Notes under the pieces: model-generated
The model's input: only the letters and a program-made list of their open reading frames with translations
Told to the model about the DNA's origin: nothing
Databases searched by the model: none
In this document: piece by piece, positions 21,489 through 29,034 of the stretch
Numbering within the stretch: position 1 is the stretch's first letter
How the letters are laid out: the number at the start of each line of letters is the position of its first letter
Made by a program: the position numbers and the translations under genes
Origin: Bacteroidales bacterium
Lineage (GTDB): Bacteria; Bacteroidota; Bacteroidia; Bacteroidales; GCA-2748055
Assembly: GCA_018400695.1 (NCBI GenBank)
Contig: JAGYMF010000005.1
Location: 1-37,691, forward strand
DNA: 37,691 bases
Direction of reading: 5' to 3'

Positions 21489-22604
21489 TTATAGCTTATT
21501 GATATCGAATGCTTTAACAAAGTTTTCGGATTTGTATTCCTTTGCCTGGATATCTCCTTTTAATAGCAGTAATCCATTCATGGCCAGGGCTCGCATTTCA
21601 TCTTCGCCGGGATATACAAAAACTGGAGCAATGAAAGCCACATGTTCCTTGATATAGCCAGTGAGGTCAGGATTATGTGCAATTCCTCCGGTAAGTATGA
21701 TGGCATGAACCTCTCCGGAGAGTACGGCAGACATGGCACCAATCTCTTTACTGATTTGATAGGCCATAGCTTCTTGCAGAAGCCTGGCTTTCTTATCGCC
21801 TCTTCGGGCACTGATCTCCAGTTTATGGGCATCATTTGAGCCGGTATAGGCAGTCAGACCACCTTTTCCGGTGATCATTTTTTTCATATCCTCATGCTTC
21901 ACCTTGTTTTTATAGCAGTAATCTACCAGGGCACCTACAGGCAGTGAACCGGATCGTTCAGGACTGAAAGGGCCGTCACCATCAAGGGCGTTGTTTACGT
22001 CGATTACACGGCCTTTTTTGTGCGCCCCGACAGATATTCCGCCACCCAGATGGGCAATAATCAAGTTCAGGTCTTCATAGTTCATACCGCATGATTGCGC
22101 ATAGGTGCGCGCGGTAGCCTTTTGGTTTAATGCATGAAAGATGGAGACACGCCGGATGTCAGGATGTCCCGTGATTCTTGCAACATTATTCAGTTCATCA
22201 ACAACCACCGGATCGGCAATATAGGGTTTTGCATGTGGCAGGTCTTTGCAAATATCTGCAGCGATCAGTCCTCCCAGGTTACTTGCATGCTTTCCAAGCA
22301 CCCCGGTATTCAGGTCCTGGATCATCTCCTCATTAACCTCATATAAACCGGATACAATAGGCTTGATAAGTCCTCCACGTCCAATAACAATCCGTATTTT
22401 ATCAAGTGGGATATCATTGTCATACACCTCCTTCAGGATCAGATTCTTTCTGAGTTCAAACTGGTCGACAACCTCCTTGAACTGGGAAAGATCTTCTGTT
22501 TCATGGCGGATCGTTTTAAGGAATAGAGAGTTGTTCCCTTTGTAGACAGCTATTTTAGTTGAAGTAGAGCCGGGATTGATGGCCAGGATGTAACTAATTT
22601 CCAT
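21489..22604 (-). CDS. buk: Butyrate kinase
   Basis: 371 residues of the acetokinase (ASKHA) superfamily, clearly the butyrate-kinase branch: ILAINPGSTSTKIAVY at the N-terminus, VIGRGGLIKPIVSGLYEVNE, LIAHLGGGISVGAHKKG and IILTGGIAHNP. It transfers phosphate from butyryl- or branched acyl-phosphate to ADP. It follows ptb after 11 bases, the standard ptb-buk order, and is the last gene of a four-gene operon. In amino-acid fermenters this pair often handles isobutyrate, isovalerate or phenylacetate precursors, so the substrate may be broader than butyrate. Confidence 0.96.
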   Translation of the reverse strand: MEISYILAINPGSTSTKIAVYKGNNSLFLKTIRHETEDLSQFKEVVDQFELRKNLILKEVYDNDIPLDKIRIVIGRGGLIKPIVSGLYEVNEEMIQDLNTGVLGKHASNLGGLIAADICKDLPHAKPYIADPVVVDELNNVARITGHPDIRRVSIFHALNQKATARTYAQSCGMNYEDLNLIIAHLGGGISVGAHKKGRVIDVNNALDGDGPFSPERSGSLPVGALVDYCYKNKVKHEDMKKMITGKGGLTAYTGSNDAHKLEISARRGDKKARLLQEAMAYQISKEIGAMSAVLSGEVHAIILTGGIAHNPDLTGYIKEHVAFIAPVFVYPGEDEMRALAMNGLLLLKGDIQAKEYKSENFVKAFDINKL

Positions 22605-22615
22605 AACAGTTTGTA

Positions 22616-23521
22616 TTATCTGGATGCAGTAGCTGCGGCGAGCAGGATTGAATCAAATTTCGCCTGTTCCGAGTCAGATCGTGATGTCAGTACAATCGGC
22701 GCAGCAGCTCCAACGATCATTGAGGCCACTTTTGCTTTGGCGAAAAAAACAAGTGATTTATAGAGAACGTTTCCCACTTCGATATCCGGCATAAGCAGCA
22801 GGTCAGTATCTCCCGCCACTTCGCTCTTAATCTCTTTGTGTCGTGCACTTTCGAGGCTGATCGCGTTATCAAAAGCCAGTGGACCATCAACAATGCAGTT
22901 CCTGATCTGTCCGCGCTGGTTCATTTTGGACAGGAGGGCAGCATCCAGGGTTGCACTCATGCTTGTATTGACCTGTTCAACCGCACCAAGAACAGCTACT
23001 TTAGGTTCAGGGACATTCAGTTTATTGAATATCTCAACGGAATTGTTCAGTATAGCAATCTTTTCATCGAGGGTAGGTGCGATGTTCATCGCTACATCAG
23101 TTACGCCGATGAGTTTATGATAGGTTTCAACTTCGAACAGGGCGAAATGGGACAGCAGCTTTCCAGTGCGCAATCCATATTCTTTGTCGAGCACAGCCTT
23201 CAGCAGGATGGATGTTCCCACCTTTCCTTTCATCAACACTTCAGCCTCACCGTCGTGGATCAGTTTCACACCCAGTCTGACGGCCTTGATATTGTCTTTT
23301 TCATCATAAAAACGGAATCCTTTCAGGCTGATCTTCATAACTTCTGCAAGGCCTTCCGTCTTTTCCCTGTCGCCCACCAGAATGGGTTCGATGATTCCTT
23401 CTTCGGCAGCACGGGCTACAGCACCAATGGAATGGGCGTCCTCAGACGGTACCAGTACCAGTTTTTGTGGATTTTTTGTATCTGGCAGAAACTGCCTGAG
23501 GTCATCAAGTTTTTTTAGCAT
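22616..23521 (-). CDS. ptb: Phosphate butyryltransferase
   Basis: 301 residues of the phosphate acetyl/butaryl transferase family: KLVLVPSEDAHSIGAVARAAEEG, VLMKGKVGTSILLKAVLD, then IVDGPLAFDNAIS and DLLLMPDIEVGNVLYKSL, all typical of Ptb rather than Pta. It exchanges CoA for phosphate on butyryl- or branched acyl-CoA. It lies 72 bases after ackA and 11 bases before buk on the same strand. The larger ackA-ptb gap could hold an internal promoter, but I find no exact TAnnTTTG there. A second enzyme of the same family (Pta) lies three genes upstream in the same operon. Confidence 0.95.
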   Translation of the reverse strand: MLKKLDDLRQFLPDTKNPQKLVLVPSEDAHSIGAVARAAEEGIIEPILVGDREKTEGLAEVMKISLKGFRFYDEKDNIKAVRLGVKLIHDGEAEVLMKGKVGTSILLKAVLDKEYGLRTGKLLSHFALFEVETYHKLIGVTDVAMNIAPTLDEKIAILNNSVEIFNKLNVPEPKVAVLGAVEQVNTSMSATLDAALLSKMNQRGQIRNCIVDGPLAFDNAISLESARHKEIKSEVAGDTDLLLMPDIEVGNVLYKSLVFFAKAKVASMIVGAAAPIVLTSRSDSEQAKFDSILLAAATASR

Positions 23522-23593
23522 GGATCTTTGTGTTAAGAACGAATGTAAATAAACATAAAACAGGGATGAATGTGTTCCTGCCCGCCTATGATG

Positions 23594-24802
23594 TTAAACA
23601 CATTTTTCCAGTATCTTGTATGTATCGGTTGCAATGAGCAGTTCTTCGTCGGTTTGAACTACAGCAGCAGTCACCTTCGATTCCGGTTTTGAGATGACCC
23701 GGTTCTGCCCTTTGATACCGTGGTTGGCAACCTCGTCGAACATCAGTCCAAGGTAATCCATGTTCTGGCAGATCATGCGGCGGATGTTGAAGTCGTTTTC
23801 CCCGACACCACCTGTAAAAATCAGGGCATCCAACCCGTTCATGATCGCGGAATAGGCGCCGATGAATTTTTTGATCCTGTAAGTATACATGGTGAGCGCC
23901 AGTGCTGCTTTCTCATTTCCTTCATAATAGGCCAGTTCAAGGTCACGCATATCGCTCGAAATCCCGGATACGCCCTGCATTCCACTGCTTTTATTAATCA
24001 TGTTGCTGACACCCTTCAGGCTCAGGTGCTCCTTGTCTGCCAGGTACAGAAGTACACCAGGGTCGATATCACCGGTTCGGGTCCCCATCATCAGTCCGTC
24101 CACCGGGGTAAATCCCATAGAGGTATCGATCGATTTTCCATATTCTATGGCCGCCACAGAGGCTCCATTGCCCAGGTGGCATGTGATCATTTTCAGGTCA
24201 CGTGTGTCTTTGCCGATCACCTTGCTGGCAGCCCTGGAGACATATTTATGGCTGGTGCCATGGTATCCATATTTACGAATCTTGTATTTTGTATAGAATT
24301 CCCTGGGGATCGCGTACATATAGGCATATTCAGGCATGGTCTGATGAAAGGAGGTGTCGAATACCGCAACCTGCGGAATACCGGGAAGGAGGTTCTCGAC
24401 TGACATAATTCCTTTCAGGTTGGCAGGATTGTGCAAGGGGGCCAGTTCAATGTTATCCTCTATATCTTTGATGACTTCCTTGGTGATCAGTACACTCTCC
24501 TTGTAACGTTCTCCACCCTGTACAACTCTGTGACCCAATGCTTTGATCTCATTCACATCTTTTATCACTCCATTATCCTTGTCAGTGAGCAGCTGAAAGA
24601 TTTTGTTGATAGCCACAGTATGGTCCGGGATTCCCATCTCTTCCCGGATCTTTTCCTTTCCGGCAGGTTTATACTGTACGATGGCATCATTGAATCCAAT
24701 TCGTTCAACAATCCCTTTGGCTATCACACTCGATTCATCATTCATTTCAAATAGCTGGTATTTGACAGAGGATGAGCCACAATTTAAAACTAGTATTAGC
24801 AT
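23594..24802 (-). CDS. ackA: Acetate kinase
   Basis: 402 residues, full length. ASKHA motifs are complete: ILVLNCGSSSVKYQLFEM, GHRVVQGG, FDTSFHQTMP, RKYGYHGTSHKYVS, ITCHLGNGAS, GLMMGTRTGDIDPG and FTGGVGEND. It makes ATP and acetate from acetyl-phosphate. It is the second gene of the operon, 24 bases after pta. Together with pta it forms the standard acetate overflow pathway. Confidence 0.97.
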   Translation of the reverse strand: MLILVLNCGSSSVKYQLFEMNDESSVIAKGIVERIGFNDAIVQYKPAGKEKIREEMGIPDHTVAINKIFQLLTDKDNGVIKDVNEIKALGHRVVQGGERYKESVLITKEVIKDIEDNIELAPLHNPANLKGIMSVENLLPGIPQVAVFDTSFHQTMPEYAYMYAIPREFYTKYKIRKYGYHGTSHKYVSRAASKVIGKDTRDLKMITCHLGNGASVAAIEYGKSIDTSMGFTPVDGLMMGTRTGDIDPGVLLYLADKEHLSLKGVSNMINKSSGMQGVSGISSDMRDLELAYYEGNEKAALALTMYTYRIKKFIGAYSAIMNGLDALIFTGGVGENDFNIRRMICQNMDYLGLMFDEVANHGIKGQNRVISKPESKVTAAVVQTDEELLIATDTYKILEKCV

Positions 24803-24826
24803 ATTATTGGGTATATCAGGTTAAAA

Positions 24827-25834
24827 TTATTTTTTCATTCCAATTGCCTGGTTGGCTGTAATGGCTACCAGGTTCACAATGTCACTCACGGAACAGCCTC
24901 TTGACAAGTCATTGATCGGAGCAGCCATACCCTGAAGAATTGGACCAATAGCCTCTGCATGTGCCAGTCGCTGCACAAGTTTATAGGCAATATTTCCTGA
25001 GTTAAGGTCAGGAAATATGAGTACATTGGCCGTTCCGGCGATGGGACTGCCTGGGGCTTTGCTCTCACCGATCTCTTTGATCAGTGCTGCATCGATCTGC
25101 ATCTCGCCATCGATCATCAAGCTTGGATCCATCTCTTTTGCCTTTTTAGTGGCATTGATCACCTTATCAACCATGGGATGGTTTGCACTTCCCCTGGTTG
25201 AAAAACTGCACATGGCAATCCTGGGTTCAAAGCCCAGCAGATGGCGAACAGTAGCGCCAGTTGCTACAGCGATCTCTGCCAGTTCGTTCTCGGTGGGGTC
25301 GGGGTGAACGGCTCCGTCAGCAAAAACCAGGATCCCATTTTCACCAAACTCTTCGTCCTGCAGAATCATGATAAAGGCTCCTGATACCACACTGATACCA
25401 GGCATTGTTTTAACGATCTGAAAGGCAGGCCTCAAGACATCACCCGTGGCATTTCGTGCCCCTGCCACTTCACCATCAGCATCACCGGCCTTGATCATCA
25501 GAACCCCAAGGTATAGAGGGTCTTTTACCAATTCCAGTGCCTTTTCCCGGGTAAGCCCTTTCTGCTTTCTGATCTCGTAAAGCATGTCAGCATACGCCTC
25601 CATTTTTGGATGATTAACGGGATCAATAATAGTGGCATTCTGAATGTTGTTCAGCCCGTATTTTTCAACAAGTATATTGATTTCAGCAGGATTACCCAGC
25701 AGGATTACTTTTGCCAGCTTTTCTCTAATGATCTGGTCAGCCGCCAGGATGGTTCTCTCTTCATCACCTTCCGGTAACACGATACGTTGACATTCCCGGG
25801 ATGCTTTTACACAAATTTGTTTTAGTAAATTCAT
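24827..25834 (-). CDS. pta: Phosphate acetyltransferase
   Basis: 335 residues, the short form of Pta lacking the N-terminal regulatory domains of the E. coli enzyme. Visible family blocks are RIVLPEGDEERTILAA, VAGARNATGDVLRPAFQIVK, DGAVHPDPTENELAEIA, GSPIAGTANVLIFPDLNSGN and GPILQGMAAPINDLSRGCSV. It converts acetyl-CoA and phosphate to acetyl-phosphate. It is the first gene of pta-ackA-ptb-buk, transcribed leftward from the -7 box at 25872-25879 in a palindrome-rich region shared with the divergent dehydrogenase gene. Confidence 0.97.
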   Translation of the reverse strand: MNLLKQICVKASRECQRIVLPEGDEERTILAADQIIREKLAKVILLGNPAEINILVEKYGLNNIQNATIIDPVNHPKMEAYADMLYEIRKQKGLTREKALELVKDPLYLGVLMIKAGDADGEVAGARNATGDVLRPAFQIVKTMPGISVVSGAFIMILQDEEFGENGILVFADGAVHPDPTENELAEIAVATGATVRHLLGFEPRIAMCSFSTRGSANHPMVDKVINATKKAKEMDPSLMIDGEMQIDAALIKEIGESKAPGSPIAGTANVLIFPDLNSGNIAYKLVQRLAHAEAIGPILQGMAAPINDLSRGCSVSDIVNLVAITANQAIGMKK

Positions 25835-25871
25835 TGATTATCAGTTGTTTAAATATGATTAATAGGAATAT

Positions 25872-25879
25872 CAAAAATA
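25872..25879 (-). promoter_or_regulatory. -7 box TATTTTTG for the pta-ackA-ptb-buk operon
   Basis: Exact minus-strand TAnnTTTG match, 37 bases before the pta ATG. The -33 position reads TATG rather than TTTG, compatible with an activated promoter. Confidence 0.6.
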
Positions 25880-25911
25880 GACATTTAAATTGAAGAACCA
25901 TAAATAAACTT

Positions 25912-25927
25912 CATGATGTAAATCATG
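25912..25927. promoter_or_regulatory. Fnr/Crp-like inverted repeat CATGATGTAAATCATG
   Basis: CATGAT and ATCATG are perfect inverted arms around GTAA. The core TGAT-N4-ATCA is the same as that of the Fnr consensus (TTGAT-N4-ATCAA), differing only in the outermost bases. It is centred about 53 bases upstream of the predicted pta transcription start. Binding by an Fnr/Crp-family regulator is an inference; no such regulator gene is in the window. Confidence 0.5.
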
Positions 25928-25940
25928 TTTTTTTATTTTA

Positions 25941-25963
25941 TCCGGAAACCGGATGGTACCATC
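25941..25963. promoter_or_regulatory. Two overlapping palindromes upstream of the FAD/Fe-S dehydrogenase gene
   Basis: TCCGG-AAA-CCGGA (25941-25953) is a perfect inverted repeat and overlaps the perfect 12-bp palindrome GATGGTACCATC (25952-25963). They lie 37 bases before the -7 box of the rightward gene, where an activator or repressor could bind. Confidence 0.45.
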
Positions 25964-25999
25964 GGTGAAAATACTGATTTCAGGAAGTAAATATTCTTC

Positions 26000-26007
26000 T
26001 ATCTTTG
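26000..26007 (+). promoter_or_regulatory. -7 box TATCTTTG for the FAD/Fe-S dehydrogenase gene
   Basis: Exact TAnnTTTG match ending 24 bases before the ATG at 26032. It contains the TTG that the ORF track used as a start (26005), so that TTG cannot be a translated start if this promoter is real. Confidence 0.6.
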
Positions 26008-26031
26008 CTATTTTCTGACCAAAATAATAAG

Positions 26032-29000
26032 ATGACCCCGTCCACCATTGAAGCGACAATGATCAATGAATCTCTCAGCGAACTTCTTTTGAAGAAGCTT
26101 GATGGCCTGGCTTTGGAGCTGGACGGAGACCTTTTTTCAGATCGGGCCACCCGTCTGATGTATGCTACTGATGCCTCGGCATACCGTGAACTTCCATTGG
26201 CTGTATGTCGTCCCAGGCATGAAGCGGATATCATCAGGTTGACCAGCTTTGCCAGACAGAACAAGATTACACTGATTCCAAGGGCTGCGGGTACTTCTCT
26301 GGCCGGACAGGTTGTTGGCAGGGGGATTATCGCTGATATTTCCCGTTACATGACCAGTATATCTGCGTTCAATAAGAAAGAGCGGTGGGTGAGGGTTGAG
26401 CCGGGTGTGATACCGGAGGAACTGAATAAAGAGATCAGGTCATCCGGACTCTTTTTCAGTCCGGAAACATCGACATCAAACCGATGCATGATCGGAGGCA
26501 TGATTGGCAACAATAGCAGCGGTCTGCATTCTGTTGTTTACGGGACTACCAGGGAACACCTTTTGTCAGTAAGGATGGTGTTGTCGGATGGATCTGTGGC
26601 TGAATTCGGTGACCTGAACAGGGAGGGATTTGATGAAAAATGCCGGCTTGAAAATCTGGAGGGACGCATTTACAGAAATATCAGGGATATCCTGGAGGAT
26701 CAGGTGAATGTTGATGCGATCCGGGCTGAGTTCCCCGACCCGGGGGTGATCAGACGAAATACAGGTTATGCCCTCGACGAACTCGCTGCATCAGTAATTT
26801 TTTCGGGAGAGGATAGCCGCTATGATGCATTCAACTTTTGTAAACTGATTGCAGGATCAGAGGGAACCCTGGGCATTATCACTGAGGCTACATTGCATCT
26901 CGATCCCTTGCCACCACCTGAAAAGGCGTTGATCCCCATTCATGTAAATTCAGTATTGGATGCGATCAGGGGGAACCTTATCGCACTAAAATATGCACCT
27001 GTTGCCGTTGAACTGATGGACCAGACCATTCTTGACCTTACAGAGGACAATATTACCCAGCGCAGGAACAGGTTTTTTGTGAAGGGACATCCGGGAGCTA
27101 TTCTAATTGTTGAACTGGCAGCTGAAAAGATGAAGGATATCCTGCATACTGCTGCTGCCATAGAGACGGAATTCAGAAACGCAGGACTGGGGTACCATTT
27201 TCCGGTTCTGACCGGAGATGAGATCCCCCGTGTATGGTCACTACGAAAAGCAGGATTGGGTGTATTGTCCAAAATGAAGGGTGATGCAAAGCCAGTTTCG
27301 GTGATTGAAGACACAAGTGTATTGCCTTCAAAATTAGAGGGATATATATCTGAATTTAATCTTTTACTTCAAAAGCATGACTTGGGTTGTGTTTACCATG
27401 CCCACATCTCGGTTGGAGAGCTTCATTTACGGCCTATTCTGGATCTGAAAAAGGAAGACGATGTGGATCTGTTTCACACCATTGCCAGGGAGACAGCATT
27501 GCTGGTAAAGAAGTATAGGGGATCGCTCAGTGGAGAGCATGGAGATGGAAGATTGAGGGGGGAGTTCATACCCCTGATGATTGGGGAGCGAAATTTTGCG
27601 TTGTTGCGCAGTGTCAAAAACACATGGGATCCTGATGGGGTGTTTAACCATGGTAAGATCATAGATTCACCTCCGATGAATACCTTTCTTAGGTTTACAC
27701 CTGGTCAGTTTACACCGCATCCGGAGACGATTTTTGATTTCAGTGATGATGGAGGGATCATCAGGCATATTGAACAATGTAATGGTTCAGGGGATTGCAG
27801 GAAGACAGCAAAAATGGGAGGGACGATGTGTCCCAGTTATATGGCCAGCAGGGAAGAGTGGACAACTACACGGGCACGTGCCAACATTCTTCGCGAGTTT
27901 ATTGGTACAAAAGGGCTGAAAAACGAATTTGATCACAAGGAGGTTTATGATATCCTGGATCTTTGCCTCTCCTGCAAAGCTTGTAAATCTGAATGTCCAT
28001 CCAGCATTGACATGGCAAAACTTAAGGGCGAATTCCTTCAGCACTGGTATGATGTTCATGGTATTCCATTCAGAACGAGGATAATTGCCTACATCACCTC
28101 GGTCAATAAGGTGGGTTCTCTGGTCCCGGGATTATTCAATTTCTTTGCAACAAACAGGTTATTTTCCACTTTGCTGAAAAGGATACTGGGATTTGCAGCA
28201 GAGCGTAGTATTCCTACCCTGGAGCCAGTTACGGTATGGAAATGGTCAGGGAAGAATCTTCAACAACTAAATGATCGTTTGCCAGTGACAGCACCGGAGG
28301 TGAATTACTTTATTGATGAGTTTACAAACTATAATGACTCCCACATAGGTATTACAACAATTAAACTGCTTAACAGGTTAGGGATCAGAGTCTATGTAAG
28401 CAAGTCAGGTCCCAGCGGACGTACATTTCTGTCAAAAGGACTGTTGAGGACTGCACGGAAATATGCCCGTGAAAATGTGCTGCTATACCGTGGATTGGTG
28501 AATGAGGAACGTCCACTGATTGGTACAGAACCTTCTGCTATACTCAGTTTTCGTGATGAGTATCCTGAACTGGTTGGTGATGTGTTGAAAAAAGATGCCA
28601 GGGAGCTTGCAGACAATGCATTGATGATTGAAGAATATCTTGTACGATTGCTGAATATGGGGCAGATAGATCAACATATTTTTACCACAGCATCAAAAAC
28701 TATCAGGCTGCATGGGCATTGTCAGCAAAAAGCTGTTGCCAGCACATCGGATACCCTGCGCATACTTTCAATTCCTGAGAACTATTCAGTTACAGAGATT
28801 CCATCAGGCTGCTGCGGCATGGCCGGGTCTTTTGGTTATGAGAAAGAGCATTACGAATTGTCTGTGAAAGTTGGTGAGTTGGTTCTCTTTCCTGAAATCA
28901 GGAAGGCAGCAAAAGATACGATAATTGCCGTCCCGGGAACAAGCTGCAGGCACCAGATCAGGGATGGAACCTCTGTCGAGGGAAAACACCCCGTGGAGGT

Positions 29001-29034
29001 ACTGTATGAGGCGTTAAGGGATAATGAATGTTGA
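26032..29034 (+). CDS. FAD-linked oxidase fused to an Fe-S/CCG-domain module (YdiJ-like D-2-hydroxyacid dehydrogenase)
   Basis: About 1000 residues from the ATG at 26032; the listed TTG start is inside the promoter. The N-terminal half is a GlcD/VAO-type FAD enzyme: PRAAGTSLAGQVVG, GGMIGNNSSGLHSVVYGTT, VIEDTSVLPSKL, HISVGELHLRP and LSGEHGDGRLRGE. Next come two Fe-S cysteine clusters (CNGSGDC with a distal MCPSY near 582-600, and CLSCKACKSECPSS near 644). The C-terminus carries CCG-type motifs GHCQQKA (near 895) and SGCCGMAGSFGYE (near 925), as in GlpC and LutA. The layout matches E. coli YdiJ, for which D-2-hydroxyglutarate has been reported as substrate; D-lactate and glycolate are alternatives. 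Probably membrane-associated through quinone interaction. Divergent from pta; a carboxylate carrier follows. Confidence 0.9.
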   Translation: MTPSTIEATMINESLSELLLKKLDGLALELDGDLFSDRATRLMYATDASAYRELPLAVCRPRHEADIIRLTSFARQNKITLIPRAAGTSLAGQVVGRGIIADISRYMTSISAFNKKERWVRVEPGVIPEELNKEIRSSGLFFSPETSTSNRCMIGGMIGNNSSGLHSVVYGTTREHLLSVRMVLSDGSVAEFGDLNREGFDEKCRLENLEGRIYRNIRDILEDQVNVDAIRAEFPDPGVIRRNTGYALDELAASVIFSGEDSRYDAFNFCKLIAGSEGTLGIITEATLHLDPLPPPEKALIPIHVNSVLDAIRGNLIALKYAPVAVELMDQTILDLTEDNITQRRNRFFVKGHPGAILIVELAAEKMKDILHTAAAIETEFRNAGLGYHFPVLTGDEIPRVWSLRKAGLGVLSKMKGDAKPVSVIEDTSVLPSKLEGYISEFNLLLQKHDLGCVYHAHISVGELHLRPILDLKKEDDVDLFHTIARETALLVKKYRGSLSGEHGDGRLRGEFIPLMIGERNFALLRSVKNTWDPDGVFNHGKIIDSPPMNTFLRFTPGQFTPHPETIFDFSDDGGIIRHIEQCNGSGDCRKTAKMGGTMCPSYMASREEWTTTRARANILREFIGTKGLKNEFDHKEVYDILDLCLSCKACKSECPSSIDMAKLKGEFLQHWYDVHGIPFRTRIIAYITSVNKVGSLVPGLFNFFATNRLFSTLLKRILGFAAERSIPTLEPVTVWKWSGKNLQQLNDRLPVTAPEVNYFIDEFTNYNDSHIGITTIKLLNRLGIRVYVSKSGPSGRTFLSKGLLRTARKYARENVLLYRGLVNEERPLIGTEPSAILSFRDEYPELVGDVLKKDARELADNALMIEEYLVRLLNMGQIDQHIFTTASKTIRLHGHCQQKAVASTSDTLRILSIPENYSVTEIPSGCCGMAGSFGYEKEHYELSVKVGELVLFPEIRKAAKDTIIAVPGTSCRHQIRDGTSVEGKHPVEVLYEALRDNEC

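Follow-up and report, generated by a model that had tools for sequence, protein, structure and literature searches.

A predicted Crp/Fnr-family operator at a fixed position upstream of pta-ackA in Bacteroidales

Which gene is served by the inverted repeats that separate the phosphate acetyltransferase gene pta from a divergent hydroxyacid oxidase gene in a Bacteroidales genome, and which protein reads them? Acetate formation by pta-ackA is a main energy step in fermenting Bacteroidales. The window, the whole stretch of 37,691 nucleotides of DNA analysed here, contains between the two genes a region of 197 bases (25835-26031) with 26% G+C. An initial annotation had described it as a divergent promoter region with a Fnr/Crp-like site, and all the elements listed in it, namely the palindromes, a TGAT-N4-ATCA repeat and two exact -7 boxes, are present at their places.

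The genes on both sides are readily recognized. Pta (24827-25834, minus strand) matches PF01515 (E 2.7e-118) and TIGR00651 above the cut-off, and ackA, encoding an acetate/propionate kinase (23594-24802, minus strand), matches PF00871 and, above the cut-off, TIGR00016. They are grouped on one strand, with short gaps (21489-25834, minus strand), with a ptb-like gene (22616-23521), whose best NCBIfam matches are to phosphate butyryltransferase slightly below the cut-off, and with the butyrate kinase gene buk (21489-22604; TIGR02707, 499 bits for a cut-off of 289). The gaps between pta and ackA, ackA and the ptb-like gene, and the ptb-like gene and buk measure 24, 72 and 11 bases; ackA is probably on the pta transcript, across the first of these, and the ptb-like gene possibly on that of pta-ackA, across the second. 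Many relatives have, on the contig that carries pta and a few kilobases away from it, a second PTA/PTB match; acid genes of the acetate and butyrate types may thus form one conserved cluster. On the plus strand, the oxidase gene (26032-29034; PF02913, PF01565, Fer4) encodes a 2-hydroxyacid oxidase, a fused FAD-oxidase/4Fe-4S protein whose closest type is the YdiJ D-2-hydroxyglutarate dehydrogenase, well below the family cut-off (NF049975, 584 bits for a cut-off of 1350). Its probable start is the ATG at 26032, as the TTG listed instead (26005) falls inside a -7 box, and it is followed by a dicarboxylate symporter gene.

The central element of the region is CATGAT-GTAA-ATCATG (CATGATGTAAATCATG, 25912-25927, no strand), a predicted Crp/Fnr-type operator whose position and core are kept upstream of pta in relatives. 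It had been called a perfect inverted repeat, which holds for its six-base arms; the four-base spacer is not palindromic. Its core, TGAT-GTAA-ATCA (25914-25925), carries the TGA-N6-TCA dyad of Crp/Fnr-family operators. Two further palindromes, neither with a strand, overlap by three bases: TCCGGAAACCGGA (25941-25953), which extends to ATCCGG-AAA-CCGGAT (ATCCGGAAACCGGAT, 25940-25954), and GATGGTACCATC (25952-25963). Both occur at this place in this genome only, and were absent from every other pta upstream region examined, so that of the repeats only the TGAT one is conserved in relatives. GATGGTACCATC has one further exact copy in the genome, within a gene, and gained no support as a genome-wide motif. 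At least four inverted repeats with arms of at least six bases are found in about 6% of shuffled sequences of the same length and composition, and the palindrome count alone, being only mildly unusual, is therefore weak evidence. Exact TAnnTTTG boxes, the -7 consensus of the main Bacteroides sigma factor (PMC7366714), occur only twice in the region, one facing each way: TATTTTTG on the minus strand (25872-25879), in the predicted sigma-ABfr-type pta promoter, and TATCTTTG on the plus strand (26000-26007), in that of the oxidase. They are divergent, as first described, but lie 120 bases apart, for which "back-to-back" was a loose term.

Stronger evidence comes from the upstream regions of pta in whole genomes of relatives and in named records of Bacteroidales and other Bacteroidota, 98 of which were scorable once duplicates had been removed. 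Between 40 and 160 bases from the pta start, a perfect TGAT-N4-ATCA is present in 32 of the 98, compared with 0.5 expected from shuffles. Thirty of these 32 lie 90-95 bases before the start, a window of six bases among nearly 400 upstream positions scanned. Near the same position, 45 regions retain at least seven of the eight core bases, and in 40 of them the end of the site is separated from the pta TAnnTTTR box by 33-36 bases. When the window is compared with four near site-bearing genomes (G001-G003 and G008), 12 of 14 columns are invariant within the site and 17 of 96 elsewhere. The pta site thus has the fixed promoter position and the conservation across species that a Crp/Fnr-family operator should show and, judged by both, stands far above chance. 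About half of the relatives are without it, although those examined do have Crp/Fnr proteins. The related genus g2 mostly lacks the site, and its pta upstream regions (L195, L197, L199, L200, L029, L034 and L035) share another conserved stretch, roughly AAAGTGTTGAAAAAGATGT.

These comparisons suggest that the repeat is almost certainly a docking site for a Crp/Fnr-family protein, as the Fnr/Crp-like label had proposed. With a probability of roughly 0.78, it would be an operator near -51, most likely activating pta-ackA, with low oxygen or another redox or energy state as the probable signal. A dimeric regulator would bind the repeat at the pta-ackA promoter, with ptb-buk downstream. If the first T of the -7 box is taken as about -11, which sets a presumed transcription start, the dimer would sit some 40 bases upstream of the start of that box, centred near -51 and just upstream of the -33 region. 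Once bound, it would most likely activate the acid-forming genes when its signal is present; oxygen or redox state is a plausible candidate for that signal. Against activation, a centre estimated near -51 does not coincide with the standard activating positions in E. coli, -41.5 and -61.5.

Binding upstream might instead repress pta-ackA, for example when respiratory electron acceptors are present. The position by itself is compatible with this, and a candidate regulator family of the genus adjoins genes with CxxCH cytochrome-like motifs; however, a protein placed upstream of the -33 region leaves the promoter unoccluded, and both position and spacing resemble those of activator sites, so that repression appears unlikely. 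Slightly more doubtful still is the proposal of the initial annotation that one redox regulator at the repeat jointly controls acid production by pta-ackA and hydroxyacid oxidation. The site does lie between both genes, their divergent arrangement is old enough to be found also in genomes of other families, and there is one subgroup, in which both genes may be affected, whose oxidase -7 box keeps a constant distance of 76-77 bases from the site. Nevertheless, across the genomes in which that box could be found the distance varies from 41 to 215 bases (about 81 in the window), whereas that to the pta box is fixed in the 40 of 45 regions given above. Moreover, several genomes retain the site with another gene in the place of the oxidase. 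In two genomes from the genus of the window, pta and the oxidase gene are separated by a DUF1338-like gene, recognized by eye from its sequence alone, and the distance from site to pta is maintained. Because the spacing to pta is fixed, that to the oxidase box varied, and the site kept when the oxidase is displaced, the repeat is to be read as a predicted operator of pta, not as a shared redox switch. Chance or neutral conservation of an AT-rich upstream region, which could appeal to a palindrome richness at the 6% level only, is refuted by the excess over shuffles, the six-base positional window and the invariance of site columns while the flanks diverge, and is practically negligible.

A predicted pta-ackA operator of this kind has a precedent in E. 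coli, where FNR directly activates ackA-pta from a site at -74.5 (PMC3688515). Both systems place a Crp/Fnr-family operator upstream of the acetate operon, and the E. coli FNR box, TTGAT-N4-ATCAA, shares the TGAT-N4-ATCA core. The window and the four near genomes compared have ATGAT half-sites in place of TTGAT, and thus not the FNR box proper. In addition, the promoter here is of the Bacteroidetes type (TAnnTTTG), the centre lies near -51 instead of -74.5, the gene order is pta-ackA instead of ackA-pta, and the regulator, which is FNR in E. coli, is represented only by candidates. The HcpR and HcpR2 regulons of anaerobes, including Bacteroides, also rely on Crp/Fnr-family palindromes and partly concern the same phylum, but their motifs differ (wTGTGAnnnnnnTCACAw, TTGACnnnnGTCAA and GTAACnnnnGTTAC), and the predicted HcpR target in most Bacteroides is hcp only, not pta (PMC1274295). 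Other Crp/Fnr proteins of Bacteroidales are PgRsp, CrpPg (PG0396, structure 2GAU) and HcpR of Porphyromonas gingivalis, of which PgRsp and HcpR bind heme; in the parts of the two reports consulted, no link of any of the three to pta was found (PMC12040651, PMC6955866). Among solved structures, 2GAU is the nearest to two of the candidate regulators.

The search for a protein reading the site, which had been recommended at the outset, revealed three full-length Crp/Fnr proteins in the assembly, which is 69% complete, so that the genome does encode members of the required family (contigs C13, C20 and C197). In relatives, the promoters of the Crp/Fnr genes themselves often contain TGA-N6-TCA palindromes, and this class of regulators therefore appears to read such sites. 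The C20 protein is FNR-like, with cysteines arranged nearly as in FNR, three of them N-terminal and a fourth downstream (CX2CX4C plus a cysteine near residue 110), all conserved in three full-length orthologs. Its best match, the NCBIfam Fnr model, scores only 73 bits for a cut-off of 228, and its recognition helix contains RESVTR. In the promoter of the C20 gene (L013:1000-1692) lies TGTGATATATATCACA, of which orthologs retain similar versions, and the protein is likely to be self-regulating. Since these promoters have palindromes of the TGTGA/AGTGA type, which do not match the ATGAT half-sites at pta, the C20 protein might read the pta site but is not an obvious choice. Assigning the site to it from the co-occurrence of orthologs with a clean site was rejected, as kinship confounds that pattern and its own sites differ.

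Two further families have own-promoter sites closer to that of pta. The first, with a SETVVR-type helix (SSETVVR), has TGAT-N4-ATCA-like sites at its own promoter and is encoded in G008 and in all three other genomes of the genus. It was sought and not found in the genome of the window, an absence that is uninformative at 69% completeness, and it is present in the related genus g2 though the pta site is mostly absent there. TGA-N6-TCA sites precede the gene of this regulator in all four loci inspected (L272, L274, L276 and L278), and it has a divergent neighbour in which a CxxCH cytochrome-like motif was seen at three of them, L272, L274 and L278. The second family has a TTKESFIR helix and lacks the N-terminal cysteine cluster; in several genomes, its own promoter has sites of the ATGAT type. 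It occurs in other lineages, which mostly carry the pta site, and was not found in the genus of the window; as many site-bearing genomes are without it, co-occurrence did not sustain it as the general reader. A tentative explanation is that the pta operator kept its place while its reader changed, with the TTKESFIR family serving in some lineages and another Crp/Fnr protein in the genus of the window. In two genomes of a related genus (L130:1864-1894 and L134:1392), ATGAT-N4-ATCAT sites, arranged in tandem in L130, lie between a Crp/Fnr gene whose product has N-terminal cysteines and a divergent oxidoreductase-like gene that may, as judged by eye, encode a sulfide:quinone oxidoreductase.

The further TGAT-N4-ATCA sites that had been anticipated did not amount to a regulon. 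Nearly all other exact ATGAT-N4-ATCAT matches in the genome itself are intragenic, most of those examined there and in nine relatives are coding, and for the genus this exact search yielded pta but no clear regulon besides it; near-identical sites on contigs C26 and C157 were rejected as operators, both being within genes. No work on Bacteroidales Crp/Fnr sites at pta was found, nor any description of a pta operator in the phylum in the literature searched. The class of element is well known, and the present site joins it with an ATGAT half-site variant and a strict position. The interest of the site resides in its breadth among mostly uncultured Bacteroidales and in which of the candidate proteins reads it. 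With its centre some 85-87 bases ahead of pta, the motif ATGAT-N4-ATCAT offers a means of tracing a regulon, and since the predicted operator is locked in position in dozens of lineages, most of them uncultured, the regulation of pta can be tested directly.
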